A stretch of 21,719 bases of DNA, taken from positions 1 to 21,719 of the IMG/VR virus record IMGVR_UViG_3300034104_002893; one strand, given 5' to 3'. Shown here piece after piece: positions 2,836-21,719 of the stretch (its first letter is position 1; each line of letters starts with the position of its first letter). This DNA is from a virus. Made by a program: the position numbers and the translations under genes. The notes under the pieces were generated by a model. That model had not been told where the DNA came from and searched no databases. It saw nothing but the letters and a program-made list of their open reading frames with translations.

Positions 2836-3783
2836 ATGACTACATTTGTGACTGGTGGATTGGGGTTTATTGGTTCTAATTTTGTAATCTCCCACCTTAA
2901 AAAATATCCTTCGGATGAGATTGTCGTCCTCGACAATTACTCTTATTCTGCAAACAGCAGTAATCTAGATAAATTTTATGATGACTGGCGATTGCAAGTC
3001 AAGAGAGTTGACATTCGCAATCTTCAATTTTTGGAGCACATGTATTCCAGCTATGAACCAGATATTATTTTCCATTTTGCGGCTGAGTCTCATGTTGATA
3101 ATTCTATCCGTGGTGACGATGACTTTCTTAGCACCAATATTAACGGCACCCATAACATTCTAAAGTGCATCAAGAAATATGGCGGCAAGTTAGTCCATGT
3201 TTCTACTGATGAAGTTTATGGAAGTCTTGGTCCAGATGATCCTTCGTTCAGCGAAACAACGCCATACGACCCACGCAACCCATACTCTGCAACTAAAGCA
3301 GCCAGCGACCACCTAGTTCGCTCGTATGTAAACACGCATAACCTAGAAGCAGTTGTAACTAACTGTTCGAATAACTATGGTCCTCGTCAGCACAAAGAAA
3401 AGTTTATTCCAACAATCATTCAACATATCAAAAACAACACACCTATTCCTGTTTACGGTAATGGTTCTAATATTCGTGACTGGTTATTTGTTGAAGACCA
3501 TTGCGATGCACTTTTAACTATTGGCGAAAACTTTAAGCGTGGTGAACGGTACAACATTGGTGGTGGATTTGAGTGTGACAATCTAAGCATGGTATCTATG
3601 ATTTTGGATATCATGGGCAAGCCACCAGAAACACATAAAAACTGGATTAATTTTGTGGATGATCGAAAGGGTCATGATTTGCGTTATTCGATGGATTCAA
3701 GTAAACTTAAAAATGAACTTGGATGGGAAGCAAAAACAAATATATTTGATGGTTTGAGAAAAACTGTGGAGTGGTATCTATGA
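2836..3783 (+). CDS. rmlB: dTDP-glucose 4,6-dehydratase (RmlB)
   Basis: This enzyme makes dTDP-4-keto-6-deoxy-glucose from dTDP-glucose, using bound NAD+, as the second step of dTDP-L-rhamnose synthesis. The product has 315 residues, somewhat shorter than the usual 340-360 for bacterial RmlB. It is an extended short-chain dehydrogenase: the nucleotide-binding motif TGGLGFIG is at residues 6-13, the catalytic STDEVYG segment holds T124-D125-E126, and the YxxxK pair is Y150 and K154 in YSATK. The NNYGPRQ and IRDWLFVEDH segments are also typical of RmlB. A GAGG ribosome site sits about six bases before the ATG. The stop overlaps the ATG of rmlA (ATGA), so the two are co-translated. All key residues are present and it should be active. 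Confidence 0.94.
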   Translation: MTTFVTGGLGFIGSNFVISHLKKYPSDEIVVLDNYSYSANSSNLDKFYDDWRLQVKRVDIRNLQFLEHMYSSYEPDIIFHFAAESHVDNSIRGDDDFLSTNINGTHNILKCIKKYGGKLVHVSTDEVYGSLGPDDPSFSETTPYDPRNPYSATKAASDHLVRSYVNTHNLEAVVTNCSNNYGPRQHKEKFIPTIIQHIKNNTPIPVYGNGSNIRDWLFVEDHCDALLTIGENFKRGERYNIGGGFECDNLSMVSMILDIMGKPPETHKNWINFVDDRKGHDLRYSMDSSKLKNELGWEAKTNIFDGLRKTVEWYL

Positions 3784-4655
3784 GAAAGGGTATAATTTTA
3801 TCAGGTGGAATGGGCACTCGTTTGTACCCATGCACCGAAGTGACTTCGAAACAATTACTGCCAGTTTATGATAAACCGCTGGTGTATTATCCGCTATCGA
3901 CATTGATGATGGCTGGTATTCGCGATATCATGATTGTCAATTCACCAAACGACGCAGAAGCATTCAAGCGACTCTGTGGTGATGGATCTCAATGGGGCAT
4001 CAATATCTCATACTCAATCCAGCCAGAGCCAAAGGGTATTGCTGAGTGTTTCCGTATCTGCGAAGAATGGATCGGAAAGGATGATGTTGCGCTTATTCTT
4101 GGCGATAACATTTTCTATGGAAATGATTTGATTAATCGTTTCGCTCATGCTAACTGGAACAGAACAGGATGTACTCTATTTGCATATCATGTCAGTGACC
4201 CTGAGCGATTCGGCGTTGTTGAGTTTAACGATAACAATGATCCCATTGATGTTCACGAAAAGCCAGCCAACCCACCTAGCAATTATGCAGTAACAGGTTT
4301 ATACTTTTATGATAATAAAGTGGTAGACTATGCTTGGCAGATTACACCGTCGCATCGCGGTGAACTGGAAATTACTGACATCAATAAATTGTACATGAAG
4401 AATCATGATTGTAAAGTTGAGTTTTTGAATCGTGGTGTTGCATGGATTGATACTGGGACATTCGAGTCTTTGTCAGAGGCATCTGTTTTTGTTGGATCAG
4501 TACAAAAAAGAACTGGAACGATGATTGCATGCCCCGAAGAGATTGCTTACAAGCATGCATGGATTACGCAGAAACAAGTTGAAGAACAGGCTAATAAGTA
4601 TGCCAAGTCGGATTATGGTAAGTATTTGTACAAAATTATTCACACGAGGATTTAA
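3780..4655 (+). CDS. rmlA: Glucose-1-phosphate thymidylyltransferase (RmlA)
   Basis: This enzyme joins glucose-1-phosphate to dTTP to give dTDP-glucose, the first step of the pathway. The product has 291 residues, the normal length. The N-terminal signature GGMGTRLYP (residues 9-17) is followed by the SKQLLPVYDKPL block, and the metal-binding Asp is D109 in LGDNIFYG. The RGELEITD and VAWIDTGT segments further on are also diagnostic. I prefer the ATG at 3780, which overlaps the rmlB stop and puts the standard MRKGIIL start in place, over the in-frame GTG nine bases upstream. It lies between rmlB and the reductase with gaps of a base or two, so the three form one transcription unit. The assignment is firm; the sugar made next depends on the downstream reductase. 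Confidence 0.95.
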   Translation: MRKGIILSGGMGTRLYPCTEVTSKQLLPVYDKPLVYYPLSTLMMAGIRDIMIVNSPNDAEAFKRLCGDGSQWGINISYSIQPEPKGIAECFRICEEWIGKDDVALILGDNIFYGNDLINRFAHANWNRTGCTLFAYHVSDPERFGVVEFNDNNDPIDVHEKPANPPSNYAVTGLYFYDNKVVDYAWQITPSHRGELEITDINKLYMKNHDCKVEFLNRGVAWIDTGTFESLSEASVFVGSVQKRTGTMIACPEEIAYKHAWITQKQVEEQANKYAKSDYGKYLYKIIHTRI

Positions 4656-4657
4656 TT

Positions 4658-5431
4658 ATGCATTTTCTAGTAGTTGGTCGAGGATGGACGGGTAAAAAGG
4701 TATTCAAGGAATTGCTTCAGCGTGGGCATGTGGTAACATTTTGCTCCCATGAAGATGCAATCGATACTATAGAAAGAACCACATTTGATTGGGTTGTAAA
4801 CTGTGCTGGTAAAACGGGAACCCCAAATGTTGATGCCTGTGAGTTGGACAAGCAGGGTACTATTGACGCCAATGCAATTTTCCCAGCATTATTGGCTAAT
4901 GCATGTGGATGGAGAACTCGTTTGGCGCATTTCTCCAGCGGGTGTATCTACATGGGTGATATTGATGATGTGGACGCTCCACCAAACTATTTTGGTAGCA
5001 TCTATTCAGTATCCAAGGGTGTTTCAGATGTCTATCTTGGCGATAAAGCGCAGGTTTATCGTATTCGTATGCCATTTACTGGTGTCAACGAGTCTAAAAA
5101 TTATCTTACAAAGGTCTATAACTACGCCAAACACGGTAAGTTAATTGATGCTGGCGAAAACTCATTAACAGATCTTGATGAGGCTGTAAGCGTCGCCTGT
5201 AATCTTATGGAAGAACACGAGCCTAATGGGTACTATAACCTGGTAAATAAGGGTTCTGTAAACATGCATGAACTTGCGGATCTTATGAAGATTGACCCGC
5301 AATGGTACACTCCAGAAGAATTTAAGGCAGCAACAGCAGCTGGGCGGTCAACCTGCACCATTCCTGCTTATGAGGGTATGTCGGATATTCGAGATGCACT
5401 CAAGAACGCTATTGCAAGTATGAAACTCTAA
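4658..5431 (+). CDS. NAD(P)-dependent 4-keto-deoxysugar reductase, NRS/ER-type (possible epimerase/reductase)
   Basis: The product has 257 residues and is a short extended-SDR protein in the RmlD position. GRGWTG (residues 7-12) forms the nucleotide site, and the YxxxK pair is Y116 and K120 in YSVSK. Several blocks match the C-terminal epimerase/reductase of plant rhamnose synthase and the mimivirus equivalent better than bacterial RmlD: GKTGTPNVDACE (51-62), SGCIY (C96), PPNYFGSIYS, RIRMP (135-139), NYLTKV (K152) and GYYNLVNKG. Those eukaryotic and viral enzymes perform both 3,5-epimerisation and 4-reduction. As I recall, a Cys and a Lys were proposed for the epimerase step; C96 and K152 are candidate counterparts. 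No rmlC is present in the window, which fits a bifunctional enzyme. A plain RmlD-like reductase is the alternative. Confidence 0.8.
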   Translation: MHFLVVGRGWTGKKVFKELLQRGHVVTFCSHEDAIDTIERTTFDWVVNCAGKTGTPNVDACELDKQGTIDANAIFPALLANACGWRTRLAHFSSGCIYMGDIDDVDAPPNYFGSIYSVSKGVSDVYLGDKAQVYRIRMPFTGVNESKNYLTKVYNYAKHGKLIDAGENSLTDLDEAVSVACNLMEEHEPNGYYNLVNKGSVNMHELADLMKIDPQWYTPEEFKAATAAGRSTCTIPAYEGMSDIRDALKNAIASMKL

Positions 5432-5471: not shown

Positions 5472-6608
5472 ATGTTACAGTTCTCTGCCTTTTTAACAGA
5501 GGCGTCTAAAGCCGTAGGAATCCAGCATCTAGAGCATCCCTCTGATCGCACATTTGACGGTTCAAAACCAGCATCTCAAGCACTCACTGCTCTCCGAGGC
5601 GTTGCTCTCGGAAGGACTCCAATTACACGCAAAATCGATGACAAAATGTCATTCCAGATCGTCCGCGAAAAAGACGGTCGCGTTGGCGTAAAATACAAGG
5701 GTCCAGGCGCCAAGTATAACTACACTGCATCCGACGTCGACACTCAGCATGGCAAAAAACCATACCTTGCTGAGCCGCTTAAAGCCATTCTAGCACACGG
5801 CTACAAGGTTCTTCCTAAAAGAGCTGGCGAGTGGCAAGGTGGATTTATGTCCACTCCAGAAACTCGTGAAGAAACCGATGGTAAGATCTCACACACTCCA
5901 AACACTATTAAGTATGCCGTCGATAAAAATTCTCCAGAAGGTAAAAAACTAGCCAAGTCTAAACTCAGCATCACAGTCCACACTGAGTTAAAAGGTAGAA
6001 ACAAAAAGGCAACACCTATCACGGATCAGTCGGAGTTTGGAGAACATCCAGATGTTCATCTAGTTAAACATGCTATCGGTAAAGAAGAACAAAGGTTAAG
6101 CCCAAAAGATCGTAAAGCCGTTGTGGAAAGATTAGCGGCTGCTCAAAAACTGATGAAAGGTCATTCCTATGAGCATCTTGCTGGTCACGAAGCAACACTC
6201 AGAACCTATGTAAACTCAACAGTCGACTCTGGCGAAAAGCCAACTGTTCAGGGATACACTCGCCATCTTACAAACAGATGGGCAAAAGAAATCGACAAAG
6301 TTAAAACTGAGAAAGCCAAGAACGCTAAAGCCGCTGCTCGTGACTCTGCACTGGAGCATGTAAAGAACAATTCTGCTGCGTTTAAAACTACATTCGATAT
6401 TCATCATAACACGCAAAAAGCAACTAATCTGCTTGCTCGCGGTTTAAATAAAACTGCAAGTGGCGAATATTCGCATTCTATTAGCGGTAAAGAATCTGGA
6501 CCAGAAGGTTACTTTGCGAAAGGATTAAAAGTTGTAGATCGTGAGGAGTTTAGTAAACTTAACAGAGCAAGATCTGCAGTGCTACGAGGACAAAAGAGTA
6601 TCATATGA
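5472..6608 (+). CDS. Phage head-associated protein with capsid-targeting N-terminus and degenerate nucleotidyltransferase-like core
   Basis: The product has 378 residues. It begins MLQFSAFLTEA, which closely resembles the T4 internal-protein capsid-targeting sequence (MKTYQEFIAEA) that the prohead protease cuts after Glu; here the cut would be after E10. Residues 20-125 resemble a phage family (I believe DUF6267-like) with a ligase-like layout: a KxDG-type lysine motif, here K54-I-D-D57, then VGVKYKG and GEWQGGFM (119-126). The usual Gly of KxDG is Asp, so nucleotidyl transfer may be lost. The rest is lysine-rich and helical, with charged stretches near 285-300. A GGAGAGAG ribosome site precedes the ATG. 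The stop overlaps the next gene by four bases (ATGA). The head-packaging and ligase links are inference. Confidence 0.65.
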   Translation: MLQFSAFLTEASKAVGIQHLEHPSDRTFDGSKPASQALTALRGVALGRTPITRKIDDKMSFQIVREKDGRVGVKYKGPGAKYNYTASDVDTQHGKKPYLAEPLKAILAHGYKVLPKRAGEWQGGFMSTPETREETDGKISHTPNTIKYAVDKNSPEGKKLAKSKLSITVHTELKGRNKKATPITDQSEFGEHPDVHLVKHAIGKEEQRLSPKDRKAVVERLAAAQKLMKGHSYEHLAGHEATLRTYVNSTVDSGEKPTVQGYTRHLTNRWAKEIDKVKTEKAKNAKAAARDSALEHVKNNSAAFKTTFDIHHNTQKATNLLARGLNKTASGEYSHSISGKESGPEGYFAKGLKVVDREEFSKLNRARSAVLRGQKSII

Positions 6609-8953
6609 GTAAAGCAACATTTACTTTTGGCAGATTTAACCCACCAACCGAAGCAGGTCATGGTAAACTTGTATCTGCTGTTCAATCACATGCTGAGGAA
6701 AGTGGTGGCAAGCATTACATTTTCCCATCGCACACACAAGATTCTAGAAAAAATCCATTGTCACACGGCGAAAAGGCAGGCGCGTTAAGAAATTTATTCC
6801 CGAATGCCAATGTTGTATCTAATAGCAAAGTTAAAACTGCAATTGATGCAATGAAGCATCTAGAATCTAAAGGTCACACGCATGTAACAATGGTTGTGGG
6901 TTCTGATCGAGTAAAAGAGTTCCACACTTTACTCAATAAATATAGAAAGAAAGAATTTCCAGGAATTAAAAAAGTCGAAGTTAAGTCTGCTGGTCAACGA
7001 GATCCAGACGCAGAGGGTGCAGAAGGTATGTCTGCTTCTAAACTTCGTGGTTTAGTTAAGGCAGGTAAACGCGACGAGTTTGTTAGCCATTACAGTAACA
7101 AAGAACTCGGTGCATCAATACATGATAAGGTAAAAAAAGCAATGAGCGAAGAAACAAATTCACCAATCGGCATTTTCCTACTTGGCGGTCCAGGTAGCGG
7201 AAAGGACTATGTCCTGAAGAATATCTTTTCTCGATTTGATCTTGTTGAGGTTCAACTAGACCAAGTGCTTTCGGGTAAAGCCTCTGAACTATTGGAATCA
7301 AATGCAAACATTGTCGTCAATGGTGCTGCTGACGCGGATAAGATTGAACTCGTTAAGACTATGCTCGAAGGCTATGAGTTTGATACTGTATATGTTTCTG
7401 TAACTAACAAAGTTTCTCGCGCTCGTAATGATGAACGAGCAGATCCACTACCAGAAAACAAGCGTTTAGAAAAGTGGTATCGTTCTGAAAAACTATCAGA
7501 AGAACTAGATTGCTTCGTGTTTAATAATTCAATTAATCTAAACGAATCTAGTCAAATGGAACAGATTATGTTCGCAAGCCAGATCGAAAAACTACTGGAG
7601 CGTCTAGTAGAAAGAGGGCTGGCATTATCTGAAAAAAAGTTGCCATCAGTTGCAAAAGATAAAGCGTCTGGATTGCCAAAGAAGTATGTTGCTGGATTGA
7701 GTGCATCAACGGCGAAGGCTAGAGCATCACATTGGAGAGAAAAGGCAAAACTTTCTGACAGCGATCCTCGTGCATACGAACCAGCTCCTGGCGATGCAAC
7801 TGCCAAAACAAAGCCAAGCAAGTATACACTAAAAGTCCGTAAGATGATGGACGAAGCCAATGAGAAAAAGATTCGTCGCATAGCTCGCAGTGGAAACATC
7901 ACTGCTGTTATGAACAAGAGAAAAGAAACGGGTCGTGTTTCTGAGGAAACAGTCGACGAAGGTGCGGCAGATAAGTCTTTATCAGCAAAAGCAGCCAAGT
8001 CAGGAATCTCAGTTTCTACTTTAAGAAAGGTGTATCGTCGTGGCGTTGCTGCTTGGAACTCTGGTCACCGCCCAGGAACCACGCCATCACAGTGGGGTCA
8101 TGCTCGCGTGAACTCATATATCTCTAAAGGTAAAGGCACTTATCATGGTGCTGATAAAGATCTAAGAGAAGATATTGATCAGATGTTTGAACAAGAGATG
8201 GATTGCTGTCCAGAAAACTACGAAGAAGCCGTAGATCTAACACCAACATTGGCAAAATCATCCAAAAAGAAAAAGTCGCAAACAGTTCCACCTAATGCAA
8301 GAGATGCTGCTTTGGATGGTCTACCAGTCGTTACGAGCGGTTCGTATGTGCGCGAAGATATTACTTTGGAAGAAGCTGTCCAATACCATCTAGAAAATAA
8401 AATCTCGTTTACTGAAAATGCTTTCCGTCCAGGGTCAGAGATGTTTTTTGAAATGATCTCTGAAGCCAGACGCCTTTATTCTGAAGGCAATTATGCTCCA
8501 AAAGACGAGTGGGAAAGGGATATGCTTAATTCAAACATTGGCGAAATTGCCGAGTTTGAAGGGCAACAAGTTGTCCTAGATTATCCAGTAGAAGAAGGTT
8601 TAGAAGAAGCCTGTTGGTCTGGGTATACACAAAAAGGATTAAAGAAGAAGGGCAACCGAATGGTTCCCAACTGCGTTCCTGTAAATGAAGAAGATAAAAC
8701 TGATGGCAAGGGCATTGGTAAGCCATGGCGCGAAGGTGGCGGTGGTGCGGTTTATGTTCGCACTGGTGATGGTGGCGTCAAGAAAGTCCGCTTCAGTCAG
8801 TCTGGAATGGCAAAGAAGTTCAATGATCCAGGAGCAACAAAGTCATTCGTTGCTCGCCATCGTTGCTTAACCAATAAGGATAAGACCAGCGCGTCTTATT
8901 GGGCATGTCGTTATCCAAGATTCTTTAGCAATTCAGGCAAGATATGGTGGTAA
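6605..8953 (+). CDS. Multidomain fusion: adenylyltransferase-like, P-loop and several small phage domains
   Basis: The product has 782 residues. Residues 1-150 form a nucleotidyltransferase of the NMNAT/cytidylyltransferase superfamily: FGRFNPPT (8-15) with GH at 18-19, VVGSDRV, and the MSASKLR phosphate-binding loop (142-148). The spacing in PTEAGH has one residue more than the common TxGH. Residues about 185-320 carry a P-loop GGPGSGKD (194-201, K200), like a small kinase. Residues about 345-418 (SGLPKKYVAGLS, APGD, KTKPSKY) look like DUF5872. Residues about 455-524 (STLRKVYRRGVAAWNSGHRPGT) are another common phage domain. The end (CWSGYTQKGLKKKG, then 706-782 with RHRC and YWACRYPR) matches short domains often found in marine phages. 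Nucleotide salvage, DNA modification or a virion polyprotein are all possible. Domain calls are from memory of motifs. Confidence 0.75.
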   Translation: MSKATFTFGRFNPPTEAGHGKLVSAVQSHAEESGGKHYIFPSHTQDSRKNPLSHGEKAGALRNLFPNANVVSNSKVKTAIDAMKHLESKGHTHVTMVVGSDRVKEFHTLLNKYRKKEFPGIKKVEVKSAGQRDPDAEGAEGMSASKLRGLVKAGKRDEFVSHYSNKELGASIHDKVKKAMSEETNSPIGIFLLGGPGSGKDYVLKNIFSRFDLVEVQLDQVLSGKASELLESNANIVVNGAADADKIELVKTMLEGYEFDTVYVSVTNKVSRARNDERADPLPENKRLEKWYRSEKLSEELDCFVFNNSINLNESSQMEQIMFASQIEKLLERLVERGLALSEKKLPSVAKDKASGLPKKYVAGLSASTAKARASHWREKAKLSDSDPRAYEPAPGDATAKTKPSKYTLKVRKMMDEANEKKIRRIARSGNITAVMNKRKETGRVSEETVDEGAADKSLSAKAAKSGISVSTLRKVYRRGVAAWNSGHRPGTTPSQWGHARVNSYISKGKGTYHGADKDLREDIDQMFEQEMDCCPENYEEAVDLTPTLAKSSKKKKSQTVPPNARDAALDGLPVVTSGSYVREDITLEEAVQYHLENKISFTENAFRPGSEMFFEMISEARRLYSEGNYAPKDEWERDMLNSNIGEIAEFEGQQVVLDYPVEEGLEEACWSGYTQKGLKKKGNRMVPNCVPVNEEDKTDGKGIGKPWREGGGGAVYVRTGDGGVKKVRFSQSGMAKKFNDPGATKSFVARHRCLTNKDKTSASYWACRYPRFFSNSGKIWW

Positions 8954-9216: not shown

Positions 9217-11598
9217 ATGGCAGACGTAAAAGTTCCAGCATTATTGCATAAGATGTCAAAGGCTGCTCAAAAGGCATGGTATAAAAAGAATAACATGACG
9301 ATGCCTTCAGAAGTCGAAGGCGGTAGATCTGCAGCTGCTGCGAAACGAGTTGTCGCTCCTGCACCTAGAAAGCAGATGACAGCTGCGCCACAATCTATTC
9401 GTGCAATGAATGCTGCGCGCCAAAAAGCGTACTACGAAAAAGGTGGTCGCCAACCAATTGGCGCTGGTGGATCTGGTGGCAGCAGTTCAATGGCTGGTGT
9501 CGGTCAAAGCAGCGCAAAGGAAATCATCAAGGGCATCAAAGCAGGATATAATCCAAAGGTTGCTCTAGTTCGTTACACTAACGAAGAAGCCGAGCAAATC
9601 GACGAAGTCACCAAGAAAGAAGCTGAAGCAGCTCTTGGTGGTCCAGTAAAAACAAAGCCAAAGATGCCAGCAGGAAAGCAACCAGAAGGGTATCGCTATG
9701 TTCGCGCTCTTGCTCGCAGGGCAATGAAGGCAGGATTGAAGAAAGAAGAAGTCGAGCAGATGGATGAAGCTCGTAGGTATAAAATTGAACCTAAAGAATC
9801 TCCTGTATTCAAAAATTCAGAAGCAAACCCAAAGATGCGACACTTTAGTATCTCTGTTAAGAATAAAGAAGTTGGCTGGCTAGAACATGACAAGGAAGAC
9901 GACACAGTCCGTGGTAGTTTGCATGGCAAGCCTGTCAACATAAGCAGACATAAAGGGGATACTGTTGCCGACAAATTCAAATCATATATCAATAGAATGA
10001 AAGAAGAAGTCGAGCAAGGCAGAGGCAGATTAATGAACTCGCATGTTGCCTATCTAAGACCAAAAAAAAGTGCTCCATCGGATGTAAAAGATCACTTTGA
10101 AGTTCCAGTTAACTCAGATAGCAAAAAAGGTGCTCACGGCAAGTTTGCCAAAATATTTGGTAGCAGCATGGCCAAACACTATGAAGTTGTTCATGTAAAG
10201 CCATTTGTAAAACCAACAGTTGCAGAAGAAGTCGAGCAAATTGATGAAATTGATTACAAAAAGTATCTCAAAGTGAGTAGAGAAAAAAGACCACTTACGA
10301 TGAAATCCGTCGATTCTGCTCTAGCTGCGGACAAAGCTGGTGACCCAAATCCACTTAGAAAACTTCAAAACACTAATGCAGCACGAAAATTTGCTCAAAA
10401 ACAATTGACTAAAAAGTTCAATGCATCTCAACCAGCAAAACCATTTCCTGTATATGAACCAGGACGTAGATATGTTGGTGATAGCGTTGAACTTGATGGT
10501 CCTACGATTGATGAGGCTGGCTATCAGGTTGTCGGAACCACAAAAGATAAAGAAACCTTTAGATCAAAAGTGCATCCTAAAAAGGCTGATGCTCTAAGCA
10601 CGCATTATAAAATGACAAAGAGCCGTAAGTACAAAGACATTAAACTTGTCAAAGTTCAAGAAGAAGTCGAGCAGATGGATGAGGCTCGTCGCCGTATGAG
10701 TGCAGCAGAAAAGTTGGGTCGTGCATTTGATCAAGAACAACAAAGAAGTGCATTGAGCCGTCAGCGTGGGCTAGATTTATTGAAGCAAAAAGACACCGAA
10801 AGAATGCAAAATAAACTTGCATCTGGTAAAATGTCCCCATCAGAAGTTATGACAAAACTAAAGAAAGAAGAAACCGAGGAATCCACTATGAAGTACATCG
10901 AAGAAAAACTAACAGCTGCTGATCCAGCATCAAAGTGGATTAGCGATTTCGTCAAGTCAGACAATCCAAAGTTTGCTGGGAAGAGCAAGAAAGAGCGTAT
11001 TCAACAGGCTCTAGGTGCTTACTACGCGAAAAAGCGTGGAACAAACGAAGAAACCGAGCAGGTGGATGAAGTTAATCGAAATAAAACAAAAACAGACGAT
11101 TATGGTGGACGCTATTTGGATTCAATCAATCGCGATAAAGAAATAAAAGAACTAGAAAGAAAAATCAGTAAAATGTCGCCAAACGATGGCGGTGGACGCT
11201 ATTTGGCTGGACTCAAACTTGATAAAATGAAGGCAATGAAAGAAGAAGTCGAACAGGTGGATGAAGTAAATGCTCGCAATAGTTTTGTTGCTACTCAGCA
11301 AGCACTCACACCTCGCGCTAAAGATGTTAAAGCATCTGTAGGAACTACACGCCGTGACGCTGCTGTGACGAATAAGTATGCTCGCCGCATATCAAAACTA
11401 TCTGGTGGCGACTATTCAAAACAAGATGTTAAGGGCAACCTAAAGAGTCTTGCGAAAGAAGAAGCCGAAGGTAAAGTTGCTGTAACTCCAAAGGAAAAGT
11501 CGCTCGCTGCGCATCACGGCGATAAGACCAAAATTACTTTCGGTGATGTGCTCAAGGCTCGCTTAAAGTCAGCCGCTGCAAAAAAGATGGGTAAATAA
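9217..11598 (+). CDS. Mosaic phage protein with modules separated by EEVEQxDE-type motifs
   Basis: The product has 793 residues, is rich in Lys, Ala and Glu, and has no membrane segment. It is built from short, mostly basic modules punctuated by an acidic motif at residues 123, 177, 263, 337, 482, 551, 611, 676 and 748. The motif takes the forms EEAEQIDEV, EEVEQMDEA, EEVEQG, EEVEQIDEI, EEVEQMDEA, EETEEST, EETEQVDEV, EEVEQVDEV and EEAEG. The module after the sixth motif (SDNPKFAGKSKKERI, GAYYAKKRG) is one I recognise from many marine phages. One module has an internal GGRYL duplication (nt 11104 and 11191). The xDE|(A/V/I) endings resemble T4 prohead-protease sites (I/L-x-E), so the protein may be cut into peptides inside the capsid. 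That is inference; the motif could instead be a recombination-friendly linker. GAGG precedes the ATG. Confidence 0.7.
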   Translation: MADVKVPALLHKMSKAAQKAWYKKNNMTMPSEVEGGRSAAAAKRVVAPAPRKQMTAAPQSIRAMNAARQKAYYEKGGRQPIGAGGSGGSSSMAGVGQSSAKEIIKGIKAGYNPKVALVRYTNEEAEQIDEVTKKEAEAALGGPVKTKPKMPAGKQPEGYRYVRALARRAMKAGLKKEEVEQMDEARRYKIEPKESPVFKNSEANPKMRHFSISVKNKEVGWLEHDKEDDTVRGSLHGKPVNISRHKGDTVADKFKSYINRMKEEVEQGRGRLMNSHVAYLRPKKSAPSDVKDHFEVPVNSDSKKGAHGKFAKIFGSSMAKHYEVVHVKPFVKPTVAEEVEQIDEIDYKKYLKVSREKRPLTMKSVDSALAADKAGDPNPLRKLQNTNAARKFAQKQLTKKFNASQPAKPFPVYEPGRRYVGDSVELDGPTIDEAGYQVVGTTKDKETFRSKVHPKKADALSTHYKMTKSRKYKDIKLVKVQEEVEQMDEARRRMSAAEKLGRAFDQEQQRSALSRQRGLDLLKQKDTERMQNKLASGKMSPSEVMTKLKKEETEESTMKYIEEKLTAADPASKWISDFVKSDNPKFAGKSKKERIQQALGAYYAKKRGTNEETEQVDEVNRNKTKTDDYGGRYLDSINRDKEIKELERKISKMSPNDGGGRYLAGLKLDKMKAMKEEVEQVDEVNARNSFVATQQALTPRAKDVKASVGTTRRDAAVTNKYARRISKLSGGDYSKQDVKGNLKSLAKEEAEGKVAVTPKEKSLAAHHGDKTKITFGDVLKARLKSAAAKKMGK
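9583..11472 (+). repeat. Nine dispersed copies of a ~27-bp coding repeat (EEVEQxDE linkers)
   Basis: In-frame copies start at 9583, 9745, 10003, 10225, 10660, 10867, 11047, 11242 and 11458. Six copies encode the full nine residues; the copies at 10003, 10867 and 11458 are truncated after four to six residues. The DNA core is gaagaagtcgagca, with third-base changes. Spacing is irregular (about 160-435 bases) and the sequence between copies is unrelated, so this is not a tandem array. Confidence 0.9.
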
Positions 11599-11599
11599 A

Positions 11600-12046
11600 A
11601 TGACAGACGCAATTGAACGATCCGCTGAAGATAAAGGTGAATACGATTACGAAGGCGACATGGCGAAGTCTCAGCTTCGCAGCATTCTAGCCAACGCAAA
11701 GCGTCTTCATGACATGTTGAAGCCTGACTCAAATTTACCTGAGTGGGTTCAAAGCAAGATTACACTTGCTGAGGATTATATCCTTACAGCAGCTAATTAT
11801 ATGGAAGGCGAGATGAACGAAGAAATGAAGCCATATGTAAAAGCTGCTCAGCAAAAATTTGATCTGGAAGCCAGAGCAAATCGAAAAAATACAAAACAAG
11901 CAGGAAGTGCAGCTGCCGATTACGAACGAAAGAAACAAAAAGAAGCCGATGTTGCACTCAAAGCAATTAAATTTGCTAAAGGCAAGAAAAATAAGATAGA
12001 CATGAAGCCACAATTAAATGGTGAGAAAGATGCAAACATTCAATGA
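11600..12046 (+). CDS. Small conserved phage protein of unknown function
   Basis: The product has 148 residues. The block EYDYEGDMAKSQLRSI followed by LPEWVQSKITLAEDYI and TAANYM is one I recognise as recurring in marine and other T4-like phages, where it has no assigned role. The second half is a lysine- and alanine-rich helix (about residues 80-135) with low-complexity KKQKEAD and KGKKNK stretches, so it may bind nucleic acid or be a structural filler. The gene starts one base after the preceding stop region (TAAAATG), with no room for a separate promoter, and its end overlaps the next gene by about 17 bases. It is likely expressed with the mosaic protein. Confidence 0.65.
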   Translation: MTDAIERSAEDKGEYDYEGDMAKSQLRSILANAKRLHDMLKPDSNLPEWVQSKITLAEDYILTAANYMEGEMNEEMKPYVKAAQQKFDLEARANRKNTKQAGSAAADYERKKQKEADVALKAIKFAKGKKNKIDMKPQLNGEKDANIQ

Positions 12047-12488
12047 CTTTTTAAACGAAGCATTTGATGATGTTATTCAGATCGATGCGCGTTATCTAGA
12101 AGAAAATTTAGATCAGATCAACAGTGAACTTGATGCGTTGACTGAAAAACCATATCAAAATGCACCTATCTTTTTAAACCAATTGCGTGGTGTTACAGAA
12201 AAATTTGGTTTCCCGCTACCGCAGTCTGCAACCAATAACTTTTTAGATCTTGGTGCCGAACTAGTTTATATGCTAGGCGAATCAGACTATCATCTCTATG
12301 TCGTTTATGACACTGGAGAAGATGGATTCGTTGACGGTTATGCTCAAGTCGTATCAAACGACGAGCTGGAAGATCTATTAAATATGGACTCCGAGGAAGT
12401 TCTCGGGGATCGCGAAGAGATGCCAGTAAGACATTCAGACTGGTATCGTAAGCGCGATGATGATGCAGGTAACACGAACGAATATTAA
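12030..12488 (+). CDS. Small acidic phage protein with capsid-targeting-like N-terminus
   Basis: The product has 152 residues from the ATG at 12030. An ATG four codons upstream (12018) is possible, but the later start gives MQTFNDFLNEAF, which matches the T4 capsid-targeting pattern (MKTYQEFIAEA) almost position for position, with a predicted prohead-protease cut after E10. The body is acidic and contains YHLYVVYDTGEDGFVDGY (about residues 88-105), a beta-rich, calcium-loop-like acidic stretch that I cannot assign to a family. The start lies within the end of the upstream gene. If the N-terminus acts as in T4, this is an internal head protein that could be injected with the DNA; that is inference from the motif. 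Confidence 0.6.
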   Translation: MQTFNDFLNEAFDDVIQIDARYLEENLDQINSELDALTEKPYQNAPIFLNQLRGVTEKFGFPLPQSATNNFLDLGAELVYMLGESDYHLYVVYDTGEDGFVDGYAQVVSNDELEDLLNMDSEEVLGDREEMPVRHSDWYRKRDDDAGNTNEY

Positions 12489-15675: not shown

Positions 15676-17856
15676 ATGTCTAGCGCAAGTCTTATTCTAG
15701 AAGGTGCAAATACTGGTCAGGTAACATTAACTGTTTCCGAAAATGCTGGTGGCGCCACATTTATTCTGCCGAGTGTAGATGGCACTAATGGTCAAGTATT
15801 AACCACAGATGGACAAGGGTTTCTTAACTGGACATCGTTAATCTCTGGTAATGGTGCCTTCGGTTCGCAAGGTTATCAAGGATACCAAGGCTATCAGGGA
15901 CACCAAGGTTTTCAAGGCGCGCAAGGTCGACAAGGCGCTCAAGGTGCTACTGGCGTTCAAGGATTTCAGGGCGCTCAAGGTGTTATCGGTGCTCAAGGTG
16001 ATGTAGGCGCACAAGGCGCAGCTGGTGTTCAAGGTGCTCAGGGCGTGCAAGGTGCAACTGGCGTACAAGGATTCCAAGGCGCAGCTGGTGCTCAAGGTGC
16101 TCAAGGTGCTCAAGGTGCTCAAGGTGTTCAAGGCGCGCAAGGTAATGATGGTGGTGAAGGTTCTCAGGGGCATCAAGGTATTGCTGGAGCACAAGGTGTT
16201 CAGGGTGCAGCAGGAACTGGTGCTCAAGGCGCTCAAGGTGCCGCTGGATCGCAAGGATTCCAGGGTGTTCAGGGTGCAGCAGGAACTGGAGCGCAAGGTG
16301 ATGTAGGTGCCCAAGGAGCAGCTGGAGCGCAGGGCATCCAAGGTGCACAAGGTGCTGTTGGCGCACAGGGTGCTGTAGGCGCACAGGGAGCAGCTGGTGC
16401 TCAGGGTGTTCAAGGAGCAGTCGGCGCACAGGGAGCAGCTGGTGTTCAAGGCGCGACAGGATCTCAAGGTGTCCAAGGTGCTCAAGGTGTTCAAGGTGCG
16501 ACAGGAACTGGAGCACAGGGTGCTGCTGGTGCTCAAGGCGTCCAAGGTGCTCAAGGTGTTCAAGGCGCGACAGGAACTGGAGCGCAGGGCATTCAAGGTG
16601 CACAGGGTGTACAAGGTGCCACTGGCGAATTTGGTGGCGCAACATTCGAATATGTTTTCAACACCAATACAGCAAACACAGATCCAACGGCTGGCTTTGT
16701 TAAGTTTAACAATACAACATTGCTATCTGCGACTGAGATGTATATTGATAACATCGATCGTTTAAGTGGAAATGTTTTCAATTACTTGAATACAATCGAT
16801 GACTCGACGTCGACAATCAAAGGCACATTCAAGATTGCAAATTCTGCAAATGTTCTAGAATACACATTCTTCAATATTAACGGTACTCATCTTCATGTTG
16901 CTGACTGGTTCGTTGTTCCTGTTGCTGGATTGAATACAACATTAACTGAATCAAATTTCCCAAACAGCACTAATGTTATTATGACATTTGTTCGTACTGG
17001 TGACAAGGGTGATACTGGAACACAAGGACCACAAGGTATTCAGGGTGCTGTTGGCGCACAAGGTGTTGCTGGAGCACAAGGCGTAACTGGTGCTCAGGGT
17101 GATGTTGGTGCACAAGGTGCTACTGGAGCACAAGGTTTTGTTGGTGCTCAGGGAGCAGTCGGAGCACAAGGCGCAACTGGTGCTCAAGGTGTTCAAGGCG
17201 AGATAGGCGCGCAGGGAGTAGTCGGCGCGCAAGGTGTTCAGGGAGCAGTCGGTGCGCAGGGTGCTGCTGGTGTTCAAGGAGCAAGTGGCGTTCAAGGAGC
17301 AATAGGCGCGCAGGGTGTTCAAGGTGAAGTTGGAGCACAAGGCGTTCAAGGCGCAAGTGGTGCTGGTGTTTCTAGTGGTACAACTAACAATATAGCAAAA
17401 TATATTGGTGCAACAACATTAGGGAATAGTTTAATCTTTGATACCAATACTAGCATTGGTATTGGAACATCAACCCCAACAGCGACACTAGATGTTGCTG
17501 GAAATGGAAAGTTTGTTGTTGTTGATTCTACTCGCGTCAATCCTCGTGTTATCTCTGTTGCAGATGCAGCTTCAATAACACCTAATGTCGCAGTTGGTGA
17601 CCAGTACAATATTACAGCATTGGCACAAGCGTTAACAATTAATGCGCCAGTGGGTGTTCCAGTCGATGGAAATAAACTCACAATTAGATTGCTCGACAAT
17701 GGAACAAACCGCGCATTGACTTGGAATTCAACATATACTGTTATTGGTACAGTATTGCCTACATCAACAACAGCAAATAAAATGTCATATATTGGTTGCA
17801 TATATAATTCTGCTGACACTCGTTGGGATGTAATTGCAGTAACAACACAAGTATAA
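15676..17856 (+). CDS. Collagen-like tail fibre protein
   Basis: The product has 726 residues. The N-terminal 60 residues ([32 protein letters not shown]) are a typical marine-phage fibre start. Two collagen-like Gly-x-y regions follow: residues about 63-318 and 442-561. They are dominated by GAQ, GVQ and GAA triplets, with Gln in the y position and almost no proline. A globular beta-rich insert (about 319-441, [24 protein letters not shown]) lies between them. The C-terminus ([16 protein letters not shown], then [28 protein letters not shown]) is a likely trimeric tip domain. It should form a rod-like trimer on the virion that contacts the host surface. AGGA precedes the ATG. Attachment role is inferred; collagen folding needs trimerisation. 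Confidence 0.85.
15862..16629 (+). repeat. First collagen-like Gly-x-y repeat region
   Basis: About 256 residues of Gly-x-y triplets built from near-identical 9-18-bp DNA units (ggtgctcaa and ggtgttcaa variants). Four single-residue breaks (G-T-G) interrupt the triplet phase at 16213, 16282, 16504 and 16573. Two pairs of 69-bp tandem copies carry them (16195/16264 and 16477/16546). Confidence 0.92.
16999..17361 (+). repeat. Second collagen-like Gly-x-y repeat region
   Basis: About 40 uninterrupted Gly-x-y triplets, beginning [10 protein letters not shown] and again dominated by GAQ, GVQ and GAV. No G-T-G break is seen here, unlike in the first region. The shift from charged triplets at the start to neutral ones resembles a nucleation segment. 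Confidence 0.9.
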
Positions 17857-18082: not shown

Positions 18083-21000
18083 ATGGCAGATAGATATTGG
18101 GTTGGTGGCACAGGCACATGGAATACAACAAGCACAACTAACTGGAGCGCCAGCAGCGGCGGTCCCAGTGGTGCCAGCGTGCCGACAGTAGCAGATAGTG
18201 TTTTCTTTGACCAGGCAGGCACATATACTGTAACCATGACAGGCGCATTAGCCTGTTTAGATATAACAGTTAGCACAGGTACAGTAACATTTGCTACTGG
18301 TACTACCCCAACATTAACAGTAGCAGGTAATGTAGCAATTACAGCAGGTACAACTACATGGAATAGTACTGGCACCATAACATTATCAGCGACTACATCA
18401 AAAACAATTACAAGCGGCGGCACAACTTTTAATTGCAGTATGACAGTAAGTGGAGCAGGTGGAACAAAAACATTACAAGATAATCTAACATTAAGTAGCA
18501 CAAGCACTTTTACAGTTACATCAGGTACACTGGCATTAGGTAGTCATACATTAACGACAGGATTATTCAACTCAAGCAATAGCAATACAAGAGTATTGAA
18601 TTTTGGTACAGGTAAAATTGTATTAACTAGTGCAACAACAAGCACAATTTGGACTACTGGAACAACAACTAACCTTACAATAAGCGGAACTCCACTAGTA
18701 GAATGTGTAACCACTGGCACAGGAGTTACCAAAACTATTAATACAGGCGCACCGTCAGAAGCAAACTCAATAAGTTTTAGTTTATTGAATACTGTGACAG
18801 GTACAACCTATGCATTTTCAGCAAGTAATGTTGTAAGAAATTTAATCGTAAATGGTGTGCAAACAGTAAGTAATATTAACTTGATAATTTATGGAGCATT
18901 TACTCACTTAACCACAAACGGAACTACTACATTTACAGCTGGTGCAAATGCATGGACATTTGCTGCTACAAGTGGCAGTTTTACGATTAATAATATTGCT
19001 GGCTTCACTTATGATTTTCCATGGACATTTGGCAGCGCAACTAGCACTGCTACCTGGACATTAGCAAACAACCTAACACTAGGTGCAACTAGGCAACTGA
19101 CATTAAGCAATGGTTCGTTTGATATAAACAGCAAAACTATTTCTGCTGCTGGTATTACAATATCAACAGGCACACCAACACTATTAAACACAGGTACAGG
19201 TAGTTTTACAACAACATTACCATTTACACATACTAGTGGATCGTTTACATTACCATTTAATATTACTACAAGTTCAGCAAGTGGTTATACATTTACAGCA
19301 GGCACTTTAGCATTAAGTACATTCACATTAACCACTACATTATTCGGTAGCAGTGGTTCTAGTTCCAGAACATTAAACTTTGGCACTGGTCAGCTGGCGT
19401 TGACTGGCAATGGTGTAACAATCTTTAATGTTACTACAGCAACCAATTTTACAACATCTGGTACTGTTTATATTAATTCTACATATACTGGTAGTGTTGG
19501 CACACGCACCATTGTAACAGGCTTTACAGAAGCGCAAGCGGCAGGATATAATGTTGCTACTAGTGGAACTACTGGCATTGTATTGAGTCCAAGTGCAACT
19601 GATATTGTTGCATTAACTGGTAGTTTTAATACAGTTAATTTGACTGGATTTACAGGAACATTAAGTAATACAACAAGAACTATTTTTGGTGATTTAACTG
19701 TGCCTGCCAGTGGCGGCACGTTTACGGCAGGTACAAATATTACCACTTTTGCTGGTACTGGCACTGAAACTATTACTACGAATGGCAGAACACTTGATTT
19801 TCCTATTACTTTTGCTGGTGTAGGCGGCACATTTGTGCTAGCAGGTGCATTAACACTAGGTTCAACAAGAACAGCAACATTAGACAATGGTACACTTAAT
19901 TTAAATGATTTTACACTTACTGCTGCAACTTTAAGTTCTTCTGGTAGCGTTGCTAGAGTAATAGCATTTGGCACCACAGGTCAAATTACACTGGTTGGTA
20001 ACGGTACAAATATTGTACTCATGACGAGTATGACCAGTTTCACATATACTGGCACTCCTAGAATTTACAGTACATATAACGGCGCTACTGGCACTAGAAC
20101 ATTTACTTTCGGCAGTACAGCTGGCGCTACATCCACAAATATATTTGATGTGAGTTTCGGTAGCAGCGGCACTGGACTTGTGATCACGCCTGCAACTGAT
20201 ACAATAGCACTTACAGGTGGCTTCAATAGCATAGACTTCACTGGATTTACAGGAACATTAAGTAGTACAAGAAGATCTATTTTTGGCGATTTAACTATAC
20301 CTGCTTCTGGTGGAACATACTCAGCAGGCACTAGTGTTACAACATTTAGTGATACTGGCACTGCAACGATTACAACTAACGGCAGAACACTTGATTTCCC
20401 GATGACATTTGATGGTGTTGGTGGAACATTTGTGCTAGCAGGTGCACTAACACTAGGTTCAGCAAGAACAGTAACATTAGAAAATGGTACACTTAATTTA
20501 AATAATTTTACGCTTACTGCTGGATTTTTAGATTCTAGTGCTACCACTACTAGAGTAATAGCATTTGGCACCACAGGTCAAATTACACTGGTTGGTAACA
20601 GTGCATCTACTGTAAGTATGACTAATATAACCAATTTTACTTATACTGGTACGCCTAGAATTTACTGTACATATAACGGTGCAACTGGTACAAGAACATT
20701 TGATATTGGCGGTACAGCTGGCGCGACATCTACAAATGTGTTTGATTTAAGTTTTGGTAGCAGCGGCACTGGACTTGTAATTACCCCTGCTACGGATACT
20801 GTTACATTATCTGGTGTATATTATAATGCTGATTTTACAAACAATACTAGCACAATAGATAATTCTACAAGATCACTTTATGGAAATTTAACCATACCTG
20901 CATCTGGCGGAACTTTTACTGCTGGCGCTTTAGTCACAAGCATTACAGCTGGTATATCAGTTGACATAAACATTCAGCGTACCATAGATTTTCCAATTAC

Positions 21001-21719
21001 CTGCAACAGTGTTGGTGGCACACTTAACTTTTTAAATAATTTGACGCTAGGTTCTACTAGAACATTCACACTTACAGCGGGTGCTCTGAACCTAAACAAT
21101 CTTACGCTATCTGCTGCAACATTCAGTAGTAGTGGCACTGGTGTAAGATCTGTTGCATTTGGCACTACTGGTCGAATTACTTTAGTAGGAAACAATGCTA
21201 CAATAGTAGATCTTACTACTATGACAAATTTTAGTTACACTGGTACACCTAGAATTGTTAGCGCATACAATGGTGCTACTGGCACAAGAACATTTAACAT
21301 TGGTGGAACTGCGGGAGCGAATTCAAATAATATTTTTAGCGTCACAACACTCGAAATAATTACCACTACTGGTGGCAATGGTAACGCTGAATCTAGCGAT
21401 GATGGTGGTGGCGGTGGTGGTGGTATTGGCGGCGGTGTTGGTACAACTGTTGATGTGAATGGTGGATACACAGGCGGTGCTGCGAATACTGCTAGCGGTA
21501 ATTCGTTGTTTACGGCAGTAACTGCCGCTGGATATACAATCGGTAGTGGTGCAGGCACTGCTGGTGGAACAGCCACTAGTCCTGCTAATGCAATCAATGG
21601 TGGTAACGCCACTGGCTTTGGTGCAGGTGGTGGTGGTGCTGGTTACTATGGCGGTAATGGCGGTAATGGCTTCTTAGGTGGTGGTGGTGGTGGCGCAGCA
21701 GGATTTAATGGTACTGCAA
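18083..21719 (+). CDS. Giant repetitive adhesin/tail-fibre protein (3' end off the window)
   Basis: An open frame of more than 1,212 codons from the ATG at 18083, with no stop before the window ends; I checked the frame line by line. It begins MADRYWVGGTGTWN...NWSASSGG...VPTVADSVFFD, a start I recognise from large marine-phage fibre proteins. The body is extremely rich in Thr, Ser, Gly, Leu and Asn, with short beta-strand patterns (TLTLGSTRT-like, GTLNLN, FTYTGTPRI), suggesting a beta-solenoid or stacked beta-repeat shaft. Related units recur at FGTG anchors 18602, 19379, 19967, 20564 and 21158. From about 21371 it turns glycine-rich, like the tip domains of phage adhesins. AAGG lies upstream of the ATG. 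It has almost no Lys or charged residues, quite unlike its neighbours. Host-receptor binding is likely. Confidence 0.88.
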   Translation, partial: MADRYWVGGTGTWNTTSTTNWSASSGGPSGASVPTVADSVFFDQAGTYTVTMTGALACLDITVSTGTVTFATGTTPTLTVAGNVAITAGTTTWNSTGTITLSATTSKTITSGGTTFNCSMTVSGAGGTKTLQDNLTLSSTSTFTVTSGTLALGSHTLTTGLFNSSNSNTRVLNFGTGKIVLTSATTSTIWTTGTTTNLTISGTPLVECVTTGTGVTKTINTGAPSEANSISFSLLNTVTGTTYAFSASNVVRNLIVNGVQTVSNINLIIYGAFTHLTTNGTTTFTAGANAWTFAATSGSFTINNIAGFTYDFPWTFGSATSTATWTLANNLTLGATRQLTLSNGSFDINSKTISAAGITISTGTPTLLNTGTGSFTTTLPFTHTSGSFTLPFNITTSSASGYTFTAGTLALSTFTLTTTLFGSSGSSSRTLNFGTGQLALTGNGVTIFNVTTATNFTTSGTVYINSTYTGSVGTRTIVTGFTEAQAAGYNVATSGTTGIVLSPSATDIVALTGSFNTVNLTGFTGTLSNTTRTIFGDLTVPASGGTFTAGTNITTFAGTGTETITTNGRTLDFPITFAGVGGTFVLAGALTLGSTRTATLDNGTLNLNDFTLTAATLSSSGSVARVIAFGTTGQITLVGNGTNIVLMTSMTSFTYTGTPRIYSTYNGATGTRTFTFGSTAGATSTNIFDVSFGSSGTGLVITPATDTIALTGGFNSIDFTGFTGTLSSTRRSIFGDLTIPASGGTYSAGTSVTTFSDTGTATITTNGRTLDFPMTFDGVGGTFVLAGALTLGSARTVTLENGTLNLNNFTLTAGFLDSSATTTRVIAFGTTGQITLVGNSASTVSMTNITNFTYTGTPRIYCTYNGATGTRTFDIGGTAGATSTNVFDLSFGSSGTGLVITPATDTVTLSGVYYNADFTNNTSTIDNSTRSLYGNLTIPASGGTFTAGALVTSITAGISVDINIQRTIDFPITCNSVGGTLNFLNNLTLGSTRTFTLTAGALNLNNLTLSAATFSSSGTGVRSVAFGTTGRITLVGNNATIVDLTTMTNFSYTGTPRIVSAYNGATGTRTFNIGGTAGANSNNIFSVTTLEIITTTGGNGNAESSDDGGGGGGGIGGGVGTTVDVNGGYTGGAANTASGNSLFTAVTAAGYTIGSGAGTAGGTATSPANAINGGNATGFGAGGGGAGYYGGNGGNGFLGGGGGGAAGFNGTA
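19682..21340 (+). repeat. Three tandem ~597-bp repeats in the giant adhesin
   Basis: Units start near 19682, 20279 and 20876. Matching codons (for example IFGDLT and AFGTTG) are 597 bases apart between units 1 and 2, and 597 then 594 apart between units 2 and 3, so unit 3 has lost one codon. Units 1 and 2 are close at the DNA level; unit 3 is more diverged. A looser copy precedes them (anchor 19379, 588 bases before unit 1's anchor). Confidence 0.92.
21371..21719 (+). other. Glycine-rich adhesin segment (continues off window)
   Basis: This part of the giant adhesin has runs of five to seven glycines separated by short polar stretches (GGNGNAESSDD, GGYTGG, GAGYYGGNGGNG). It resembles the polyglycine-sandwich, variable-loop tips known from T-even-type adhesins (gp38), where the loops decide receptor choice. 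The likeness is by composition only. Confidence 0.5.

Follow-up and report, generated by a model that had tools for sequence, protein, structure and literature searches.

The protein encoded at 9217–11598 of this viral DNA raises the question of why one acidic motif recurs along a single chain between otherwise unlike parts. The window (the whole stretch of DNA analysed) is a complete virus record of 21,719 bases and a piece of a larger genome, in which this open reading frame (ORF; + strand, 793 aa) is present and open throughout. An earlier note had offered two readings as alternatives, a polyprotein cut into many peptides in the capsid or a modular gene assembled by recombination at the shared sequence. 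Each found support here, but the two are compatible rather than exclusive, and their combination is what the data favour. Below, the ORF is listed part by part, with ↓ marking a putative cut position. Motifs 1–6 were located as matches to a degenerate DNA word and partial motifs from the ORF translation and a repeat search; the modules were mapped onto relatives.

9217–11598, + strand: putative mosaic cargo polyprotein ORF, 793 aa, identical or near-identical in the related loci L002–L004
9217–9582, + strand: N-terminal module A (aa 1–122), the family's conserved first module, net charge +16
9583–9606, + strand: motif 1, EEAEQIDE↓V
9607–9744, + strand: module B (aa 131–176), VTKKEAEAALGG..., with differing xE sites ahead of it in relatives
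9745–9768, + strand: motif 2, EEVEQMDE↓A
9769–10002, + strand: module C (aa 185–262)
10003–10017, + strand: partial motif EEVEQ (then GRG), without xDE
10018–10224, + strand: module C2 (aa 268–336)
10225–10248, + strand: motif 3, EEVEQIDE↓I
10249–10497, + strand: module D (aa 345–427), in the order D-E in the window and E-D in L007
10498–10515, + strand: junction GPTIDE↓A, an I-x-E site without EEVEQ; tenth junction, with a cut-like end
10516–10659, + strand: module E (aa 434–481)
10660–10683, + strand: motif 4, EEVEQMDE↓A
10684–10866, + strand: module F (aa 490–550)
10867–10881, + strand: partial motif EETEE (then STM), without xDE
10882–11046, + strand: module G (about aa 556–610), MKYIEEKLTAADPASKWISDFV..., widely shared, with a possible extra site YIEE↓K inside
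11047–11070, + strand: motif 5, EETEQVDE↓V
11071–11241, + strand: module H (aa 619–675)
11242–11265, + strand: motif 6, EEVEQVDE↓V
11266–11457, + strand: module I (aa 684–747)
11458–11472, + strand: partial motif EEAEG (then KVA), without xDE
11473–11595, + strand: C-terminal module Z (about aa 753–793), common to L014, L020, L025, L026 and L033

Six complete copies of the motif, EE(V/A/T)EQ(I/M/V)DE, were present in the ORF. The count of nine given in the earlier note arose by adding to these the three partial copies (EEVEQ-GRG, EETEE-STM and EEAEG-KVA), which have no xDE end. The degenerate DNA word GARGARRYNGARCARNTNGAYGAR had six matches in the window, all within this ORF (9583, 9745, 10225, 10660, 11047 and 11242), and none when the window was shuffled 100 times with dinucleotides preserved. 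The residues following xDE in motifs 1–6 were V, A, I, A, V and V, in agreement with the described ending of I/M/V-D-E and then A, V or I. The intervening modules had been called unrelated, and a repeat search within the protein detected no similarity among them; the mosaic protein had no significant match in Pfam, PHROG, PADLOC or PDB, and these searches revealed no recognisable enzymatic or conflict domains. The six motifs and GPTIDE divide the protein into eight segments, each with a positive net charge (+6 to +16), as expected of packaged proteins that contact DNA. An AlphaFold model from an 18-sequence alignment was mostly helical or disordered and of low confidence (mean pLDDT 50), and was thus too weak to judge linkers or motif exposure.

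A scan of environmental viral contigs yielded 38 loci, including the near-identical copies L002–L004, of which L004 sits on a 74.9 kb contig (G001). Many relatives begin with the same first module and then diverge. Once the window modules had been mapped onto relatives, module order, the conservation of which had been set against the proposal, proved not to be conserved: it was A-B-C-C2-D-E-F-G-H-I-Z in the window, A-B-x-E-D-F in L007, A-x-B-x-F-G in L010, A-F-B-D-I-G in L013, A-F-B-D-G-x-Z in L033 and D-x-G-x-Z in L014. The gene that directly follows the mosaic in the window is itself an internal mosaic module in several relatives.

11600–12046, + strand: stand-alone gene for the GEYDYEGDMAKSQL... 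module, embedded in the mosaics of L007, L020, L025, L026 and L037

A degenerate-motif scan gave at least 120 stretches, and the surrounding ORFs were further mosaics of like style; thus, the motif is widespread and not the peculiarity of one phage. Isolated phages searched with the whole mosaic protein gave no match, and relatives among them were reached via a neighbouring gene. Single-linkage clustering placed most modules in one cluster because of unsplit junctions, and we therefore claim no count of module families.

Comparison of these relatives demonstrated that modules are shuffled at the motif. In 148 mosaic proteins cut at motif-like junctions, the neighbour of a homologous module was different in 723 cases vs the same in 100 at the right junction, and different in 585 vs the same in 100 at the left. 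The junction profile of these proteins, in which the compared pairs are non-independent, showed identity jumping on the left side from 0.05–0.10 to about 0.5 at the residue directly behind the motif, and falling to background past the motif on the right. At the DNA level, 60% of 85 internal ends of blocks with at least 93% identity lay within 6 nt of a junction, compared to 10% (maximum 21%) of random positions. The junction profile and the DNA block test took the place of two protein breakpoint tests: a motif-masked protein BLAST of all 143 proteins gave a signal at noise level, and a restricted version gave a signal only at ≥45% identity, with too few ends at higher identity.

Pairs of closely related loci located the exchanges more precisely. 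L008 and L011 were at least 95% identical on both flanks, with motif-module-motif in L008 and a single motif in L011. L020 and L026 shared 97% identity over a 1335-bp stretch that reaches a motif's final bases; different modules followed, and beyond them the match resumed at 96%. L013 and L033 were 99.4% identical up to GTAATTGATGA, followed by a deletion difference that begins in ATTGATGA. Between the window and L007, modules D and E were both 94% identical and their order was swapped, in blocks that end in motifs. The search of related phages suggested in the earlier note thus revealed modules that had been deleted, replaced and transposed, whose breakpoints fall inside the motif DNA or where it ends. 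Strong support for recombination at the shared word, as proposed for a modular gene, comes from these base-level junctions between near-identical relatives, and module exchange almost certainly occurs at the motif.

The near-identity of the motif DNA that had been reported was borne out, and it exceeds what conservation of the protein requires. Among motifs of the window family, Glu-4 was encoded by GAG in 37 of 40 and Gln-5 by CAG in 32 of 40, whereas non-motif Glu-Gln pairs from the same loci used GAG in 112 of 270 (41%) and CAG in 114 of 270 (42%; P = 3e-10 for GAG and 7e-6 for CAG). This bias kept the same direction over 193 motif instances from all loci and, since the locus searches were codon-degenerate, is not a search artefact. 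Homologous recombination that joins copies through the word would be expected to conserve its codons.

In T4, the prohead protease gp21 cuts after L/I-x-E (PMC9026906). The six window motifs carried I, M, I, M, V and V at P3. The strict T4 rule was followed by IDE at 9583 and 10225, and by TIDE at 10498; two MDE and two VDE motifs fell outside it, and the cognate protease may have a P3 preference of its own. The likeness to the T4 rule that had been pointed out is thus strict for two of the six motifs, the other four having M or V. For a test of module starts, we took the first 30 residues after canonical motifs, located homologues elsewhere and read the residues upstream of these. At non-canonical module starts, Glu occupied P1 in 134 of 150 cases and [ILVM]xE was present in 124 of 150, vs a background of 2.2%; in a strict set with no EExE remnant, the corresponding counts were 40 of 48 and 35 of 48. 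Across homologues, hydrophobic-x-E is thus conserved at the putative cut position even where the EEVEQ word is lacking. Were the motif a mere joint, modules behind other sequence would not need such an ending. Depletion of [IL]xE inside modules was looked for and was absent (z +1.4); thus, nothing indicates that cutting is confined to motifs. A gp21-type protease probably cuts at the motif.

Modules of this kind were also found directly behind T4-type capsid-targeting N-termini (MLKFKQYLDE↓VKKPTG..., MLKFKDFILE↓VAAWQRKEGK... and MKSFKQYLGE↓DLRQWF...). In the T4 record, IPII and IPIII begin MKTYQEFIAE↓A, and in the T4 capsid-targeting sequence positions 4 and 7 serve targeting and positions 8 and 10 processing (PMC9026906). 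N-termini of the form M..[FY]..[FYL][ILV].E occurred in 107 of 1886 ORFs from loci L002–L191 and L193–L233, vs 0.64 expected; P3 was V in 10 of these 107, in a search pattern that excluded M. Two such N-termini are encoded in the window, so that the neighbourhood of the mosaic is probably a cargo region.

5472–6608, + strand: DUF6267 protein with the T4-type capsid-targeting N-terminus MLQFSAFLTE↓A (profile match and N-terminus pattern)
6605–8953, + strand: cytidylyltransferase-like protein that includes DUF5824 and CWSGY modules; EETVDE↓G and EGLEE↓A occur in it as punctuation
12018–12488, + strand: protein with the T4-type capsid-targeting sequence MQTFNDFLNE↓A, from the second Met (N-terminus pattern)

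Unlike its neighbours at 5472 and 12018, the mosaic has an N-terminus, MADVKVPALLHKMSK..., with no capsid-targeting sequence; among 115 motif proteins, just 8 had such a sequence. No T4 late promoter (TATAAATA) was found within the window. The locus lies between the cytidylyltransferase and a lysozyme, not between portal gp20 and protease gp21.

Several features of the surroundings were recorded separately. The 6605–8953 protein is a mosaic too: EETVDE↓G precedes its DUF5824 module and EGLEE↓A its CWSGYTQKGLKKKGNRMVPNCVP module, and both modules recur in other mosaics. By eye, 2836–5431 holds three adjacent nucleotide-sugar genes (dTDP-glucose dehydratase-like, thymidylyltransferase-like and reductase-like). 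A tail-fibre-like protein with a long collagen-like G-x-Q/G-A-Q repeat region is encoded at 15676–17856, and the ORF at 18083–21719 exits the contig; its version on G001 has 1984 aa and repeated fibre-like units. Curlin-like and CsgG-like genes were seen by eye at about 33.8–35.8 kb of G001 (L184), and the paper on phage Melnitz discusses phage-encoded curli operons as well.

Homologues of gp21 (Peptidase_S77) and gp23 are encoded by T4-like contigs that carry the motif. A gp21 gene was present in the syntenic isolate Melnitz and in 7 other motif-bearing contigs; the window and its nearest contigs are fragments without gp21, and neither gp21 nor gp23 was found in the searched window-family contigs, which stop short of these head genes. 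Melnitz, a cultured Methylophilales phage, keeps the order of the window (helicase, DUF6267-like, cytidylyltransferase, short cupin-like and mosaic-like protein). Candidate sites in Melnitz_20 read EEVILE↓V, EEIEIDE↓M and PEMDE↓A. The interval from a gp67-like gene to gp21, where T4 has gp68, is occupied by motif-punctuated proteins in contigs G029 and G022 and, with less clarity, in G017; four other contigs have different proteins there. Capsid proteins of these contigs carry LxE near residues 50–60, and those of the isolates Melnitz and C48C1 carry FLSE↓A and FLTE↓T, respectively.

Homologues of the 6605–8953 protein are known from virions of the isolates S-SM1 and S-CREM2: the cytidylyltransferase of cyanophage S-SM1 was detected in virions (PMC3037559), as were S-CREM2 gp154, gp155 and gp160 by mass spectrometry, which reports detection and not cleavage (PMC10665884). 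Here, gp154 is the cytidylyltransferase, with the N-terminus MKNFSSFLTE↓A, and a comparison over all ORFs revealed that gp160 and gp155 have modules in common with motif-bearing proteins; gp160 has the candidate site KEETEISE↓G. In L040 (2422–4242, − strand), gp160-type and gp155-type modules are fused via KEEFEIDE↓, whereas they belong to separate virion proteins in S-CREM2. The presence of gp155 and gp160 in virions indicates that this class of protein enters virions in at least one relative, and it is quite likely that the mosaic is head cargo. The polyprotein reading gained independent, though indirect, support from the hydrophobic-x-E kept at module starts, the modules adjacent to capsid-targeting sequences, the position of some mosaics next to gp21 and the related virion proteins, but the strict I/L-x-E rule holds at only two of six motifs. 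As a separate observation, S-CREM2 gp160 (L238, 14343–15236) contains GFTGAAAPEGPVAGYDPLM, which closely resembles GFTGAAAPGGPNAGFDPVM behind the cut site of the phage's own major capsid protein and is possibly a captured fragment of it.

Taken as a whole, these comparisons make it likely that the ORF encodes a T4-like internal-head cargo polyprotein, which a gp21-type protease cuts and recombination at the motif remodels. The chain would consist of about ten modules, small and basic, with a DNA-conserved word between them, GAAGAAGTCGAGCAR-NTN-GAYGAR (EEVEQxDE in protein). As DNA, the word would act as a homology patch through which phage recombination could delete, insert and transpose modules whole and in frame. 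The protein form of the word has a hydrophobic-x-E end, which is the rule of gp21-type prohead proteases, so that within the maturing head every module that has newly been joined would also be set free as a small protein of its own; released modules could then be injected along with the DNA. We infer that the mosaic is packaged, cut at the motif and injected, and likewise any role that its modules may have once released. Counted against cutting or cargo are M or V at four sites, an N-terminus without its own capsid-targeting sequence, undepleted [IL]xE and the absence of TATAAATA. Counted against cutting is also that most head proteins of SPN3US (about 80%) are uncut by its prohead protease (PMC10052503).

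It is unlikely that the word is a recombination linker only, that is, a homology patch for in-frame swaps in a multi-domain chain that stays intact in the head or the infected cell. Such a linker would account in full for the motif DNA conservation and the junctions, and would agree with the V or M at P3 of four of six sites and the undepleted [IL]xE. It leaves unexplained, however, why [ILVM]xE marks module starts that lack EEVEQ (35 of the 48 strict cases), why the same modules stand right behind capsid-targeting sequences, and why the modules that L040 joins in one chain occur in S-CREM2 virions as two distinct proteins. An ancestral tandem duplication, with the motifs as relics of an internal repeat and the parts between them diverged with no exchange between phages, would fit modules and motifs that lie head to tail in a single frame, and the likeness of motif DNA between copies. 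This is highly improbable: modules within the protein have no detected mutual homology, and modules at least 90% identical in DNA stand in other orders and neighbourhoods in other phages, such that the transposed near-identical modules contradict it.

A prohead core or scaffold-like role, disposable like that of T4 gp67, gp68 and gp22, in which the protein is chopped by gp21 and lost and its modules are idle after assembly, is somewhat less likely even than the linker. All eight motif-bounded segments are basic, whereas the T4 gp67 and gp22 sequences are acidic; S-CREM2 gp155 and gp160 stay in mature virions (PMC10665884); and rapid shuffling, together with a place among capsid-targeted proteins, cytidylyltransferase and lysozyme, resembles variable cargo. 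For this role speak the mosaics of G029, G022 and G017 in the gp67–gp21 slot, the cutting of T4 gp22 and gp67 into many fragments (PMC9026906) and the mostly helical or disordered low-confidence model. The likeness to core proteins lies in the multiple xE sites per protein, gp67, gp68 and gp22 each being cut by gp21 into several fragments. Core fragments are mostly lost from the T4 head, however, and T4 core proteins are not built as mosaics with modules that can be exchanged; the gp67–gp21 slot is common to some relatives' mosaics, but since the window locus lies elsewhere we did not class its mosaic as a prohead core protein.

The cargo polyprotein reading places the mosaic closest to the T4 internal proteins. 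T4 internal proteins such as IPI* are injected and disarm host restriction. IPI, IPII, IPIII and Alt are capsid-targeted and gp21-cleaved before injection, and their cut site has the hydrophobic-x-E form of the mosaic's putative sites. In T4 IPIII, replacing the P1 Glu with Asp prevents processing and leaves targeting intact. The capsid-targeting sequence on the mosaic's neighbours agrees with T4 at the tested positions 4, 7, 8 and 10, the T4 ip genes adjoin a lysozyme gene as the window locus does, and both the internal proteins and the window modules are small and variable. In contrast, T4 has a single protein per gene with a single N-terminal cut, whereas the window chain has at least six putative sites, and its modules are exchanged at the site. 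Because the mosaic lacks a capsid-targeting sequence we did not file it as an internal protein; by analogy, it may work like a multi-site version of one.

Protease substrates of phiKZ, 201phi2-1 and SPN3US follow a three-residue rule with cutting after Glu, as proposed for the mosaic, and likewise have long multi-site regions. According to the accessible parts of those reports, however, their sites are S/A-x-E or A-x-E and mostly serve propeptide removal, and those parts describe no conserved DNA word or site-bound module exchange. Polyvalent proteins (Iyer et al. 2017, PMC5512222) are multi-domain and mosaic, are proposed to be packaged and then released as separate domains, and were likened to polyproteins by their own authors; they contain known enzyme domains, in many cases with a peptidase embedded, whereas the mosaic has no known domains and its putative cutter is the head protease acting in trans. 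A survey of phage protein mosaicism (Smug et al. 2023, PMC10684548) describes ongoing exchange of fragments between phages, as here, and the passages covered here make no mention of internal head proteins or of a shared linker serving also for cleavage. Within the open-licence literature, our searches met with neither this motif nor any account of phage head polyproteins whose modules can be exchanged.

To our knowledge, how phages renew their injected cargo is little understood. We lean slightly towards the broader view that T4-like phages of water bodies share a pool of cargo modules, with the word serving as recombination joint and protease site at once. Exchange at the word would then automatically give an in-frame fusion that is re-separated by the head protease, a combinatorial system by which a phage head could be loaded with changing sets of injected proteins. 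The pattern M..[FY]..[FYL][ILV].E offers a simple means to list candidate packaged proteins of environmental T4-like phages. If the motif is indeed both joint and cut site, new cargo would be gained without destroying the old, and environmental T4-like phages would hold a large number of uncharacterised proteins that are candidates for injection and have recognisable boundaries.
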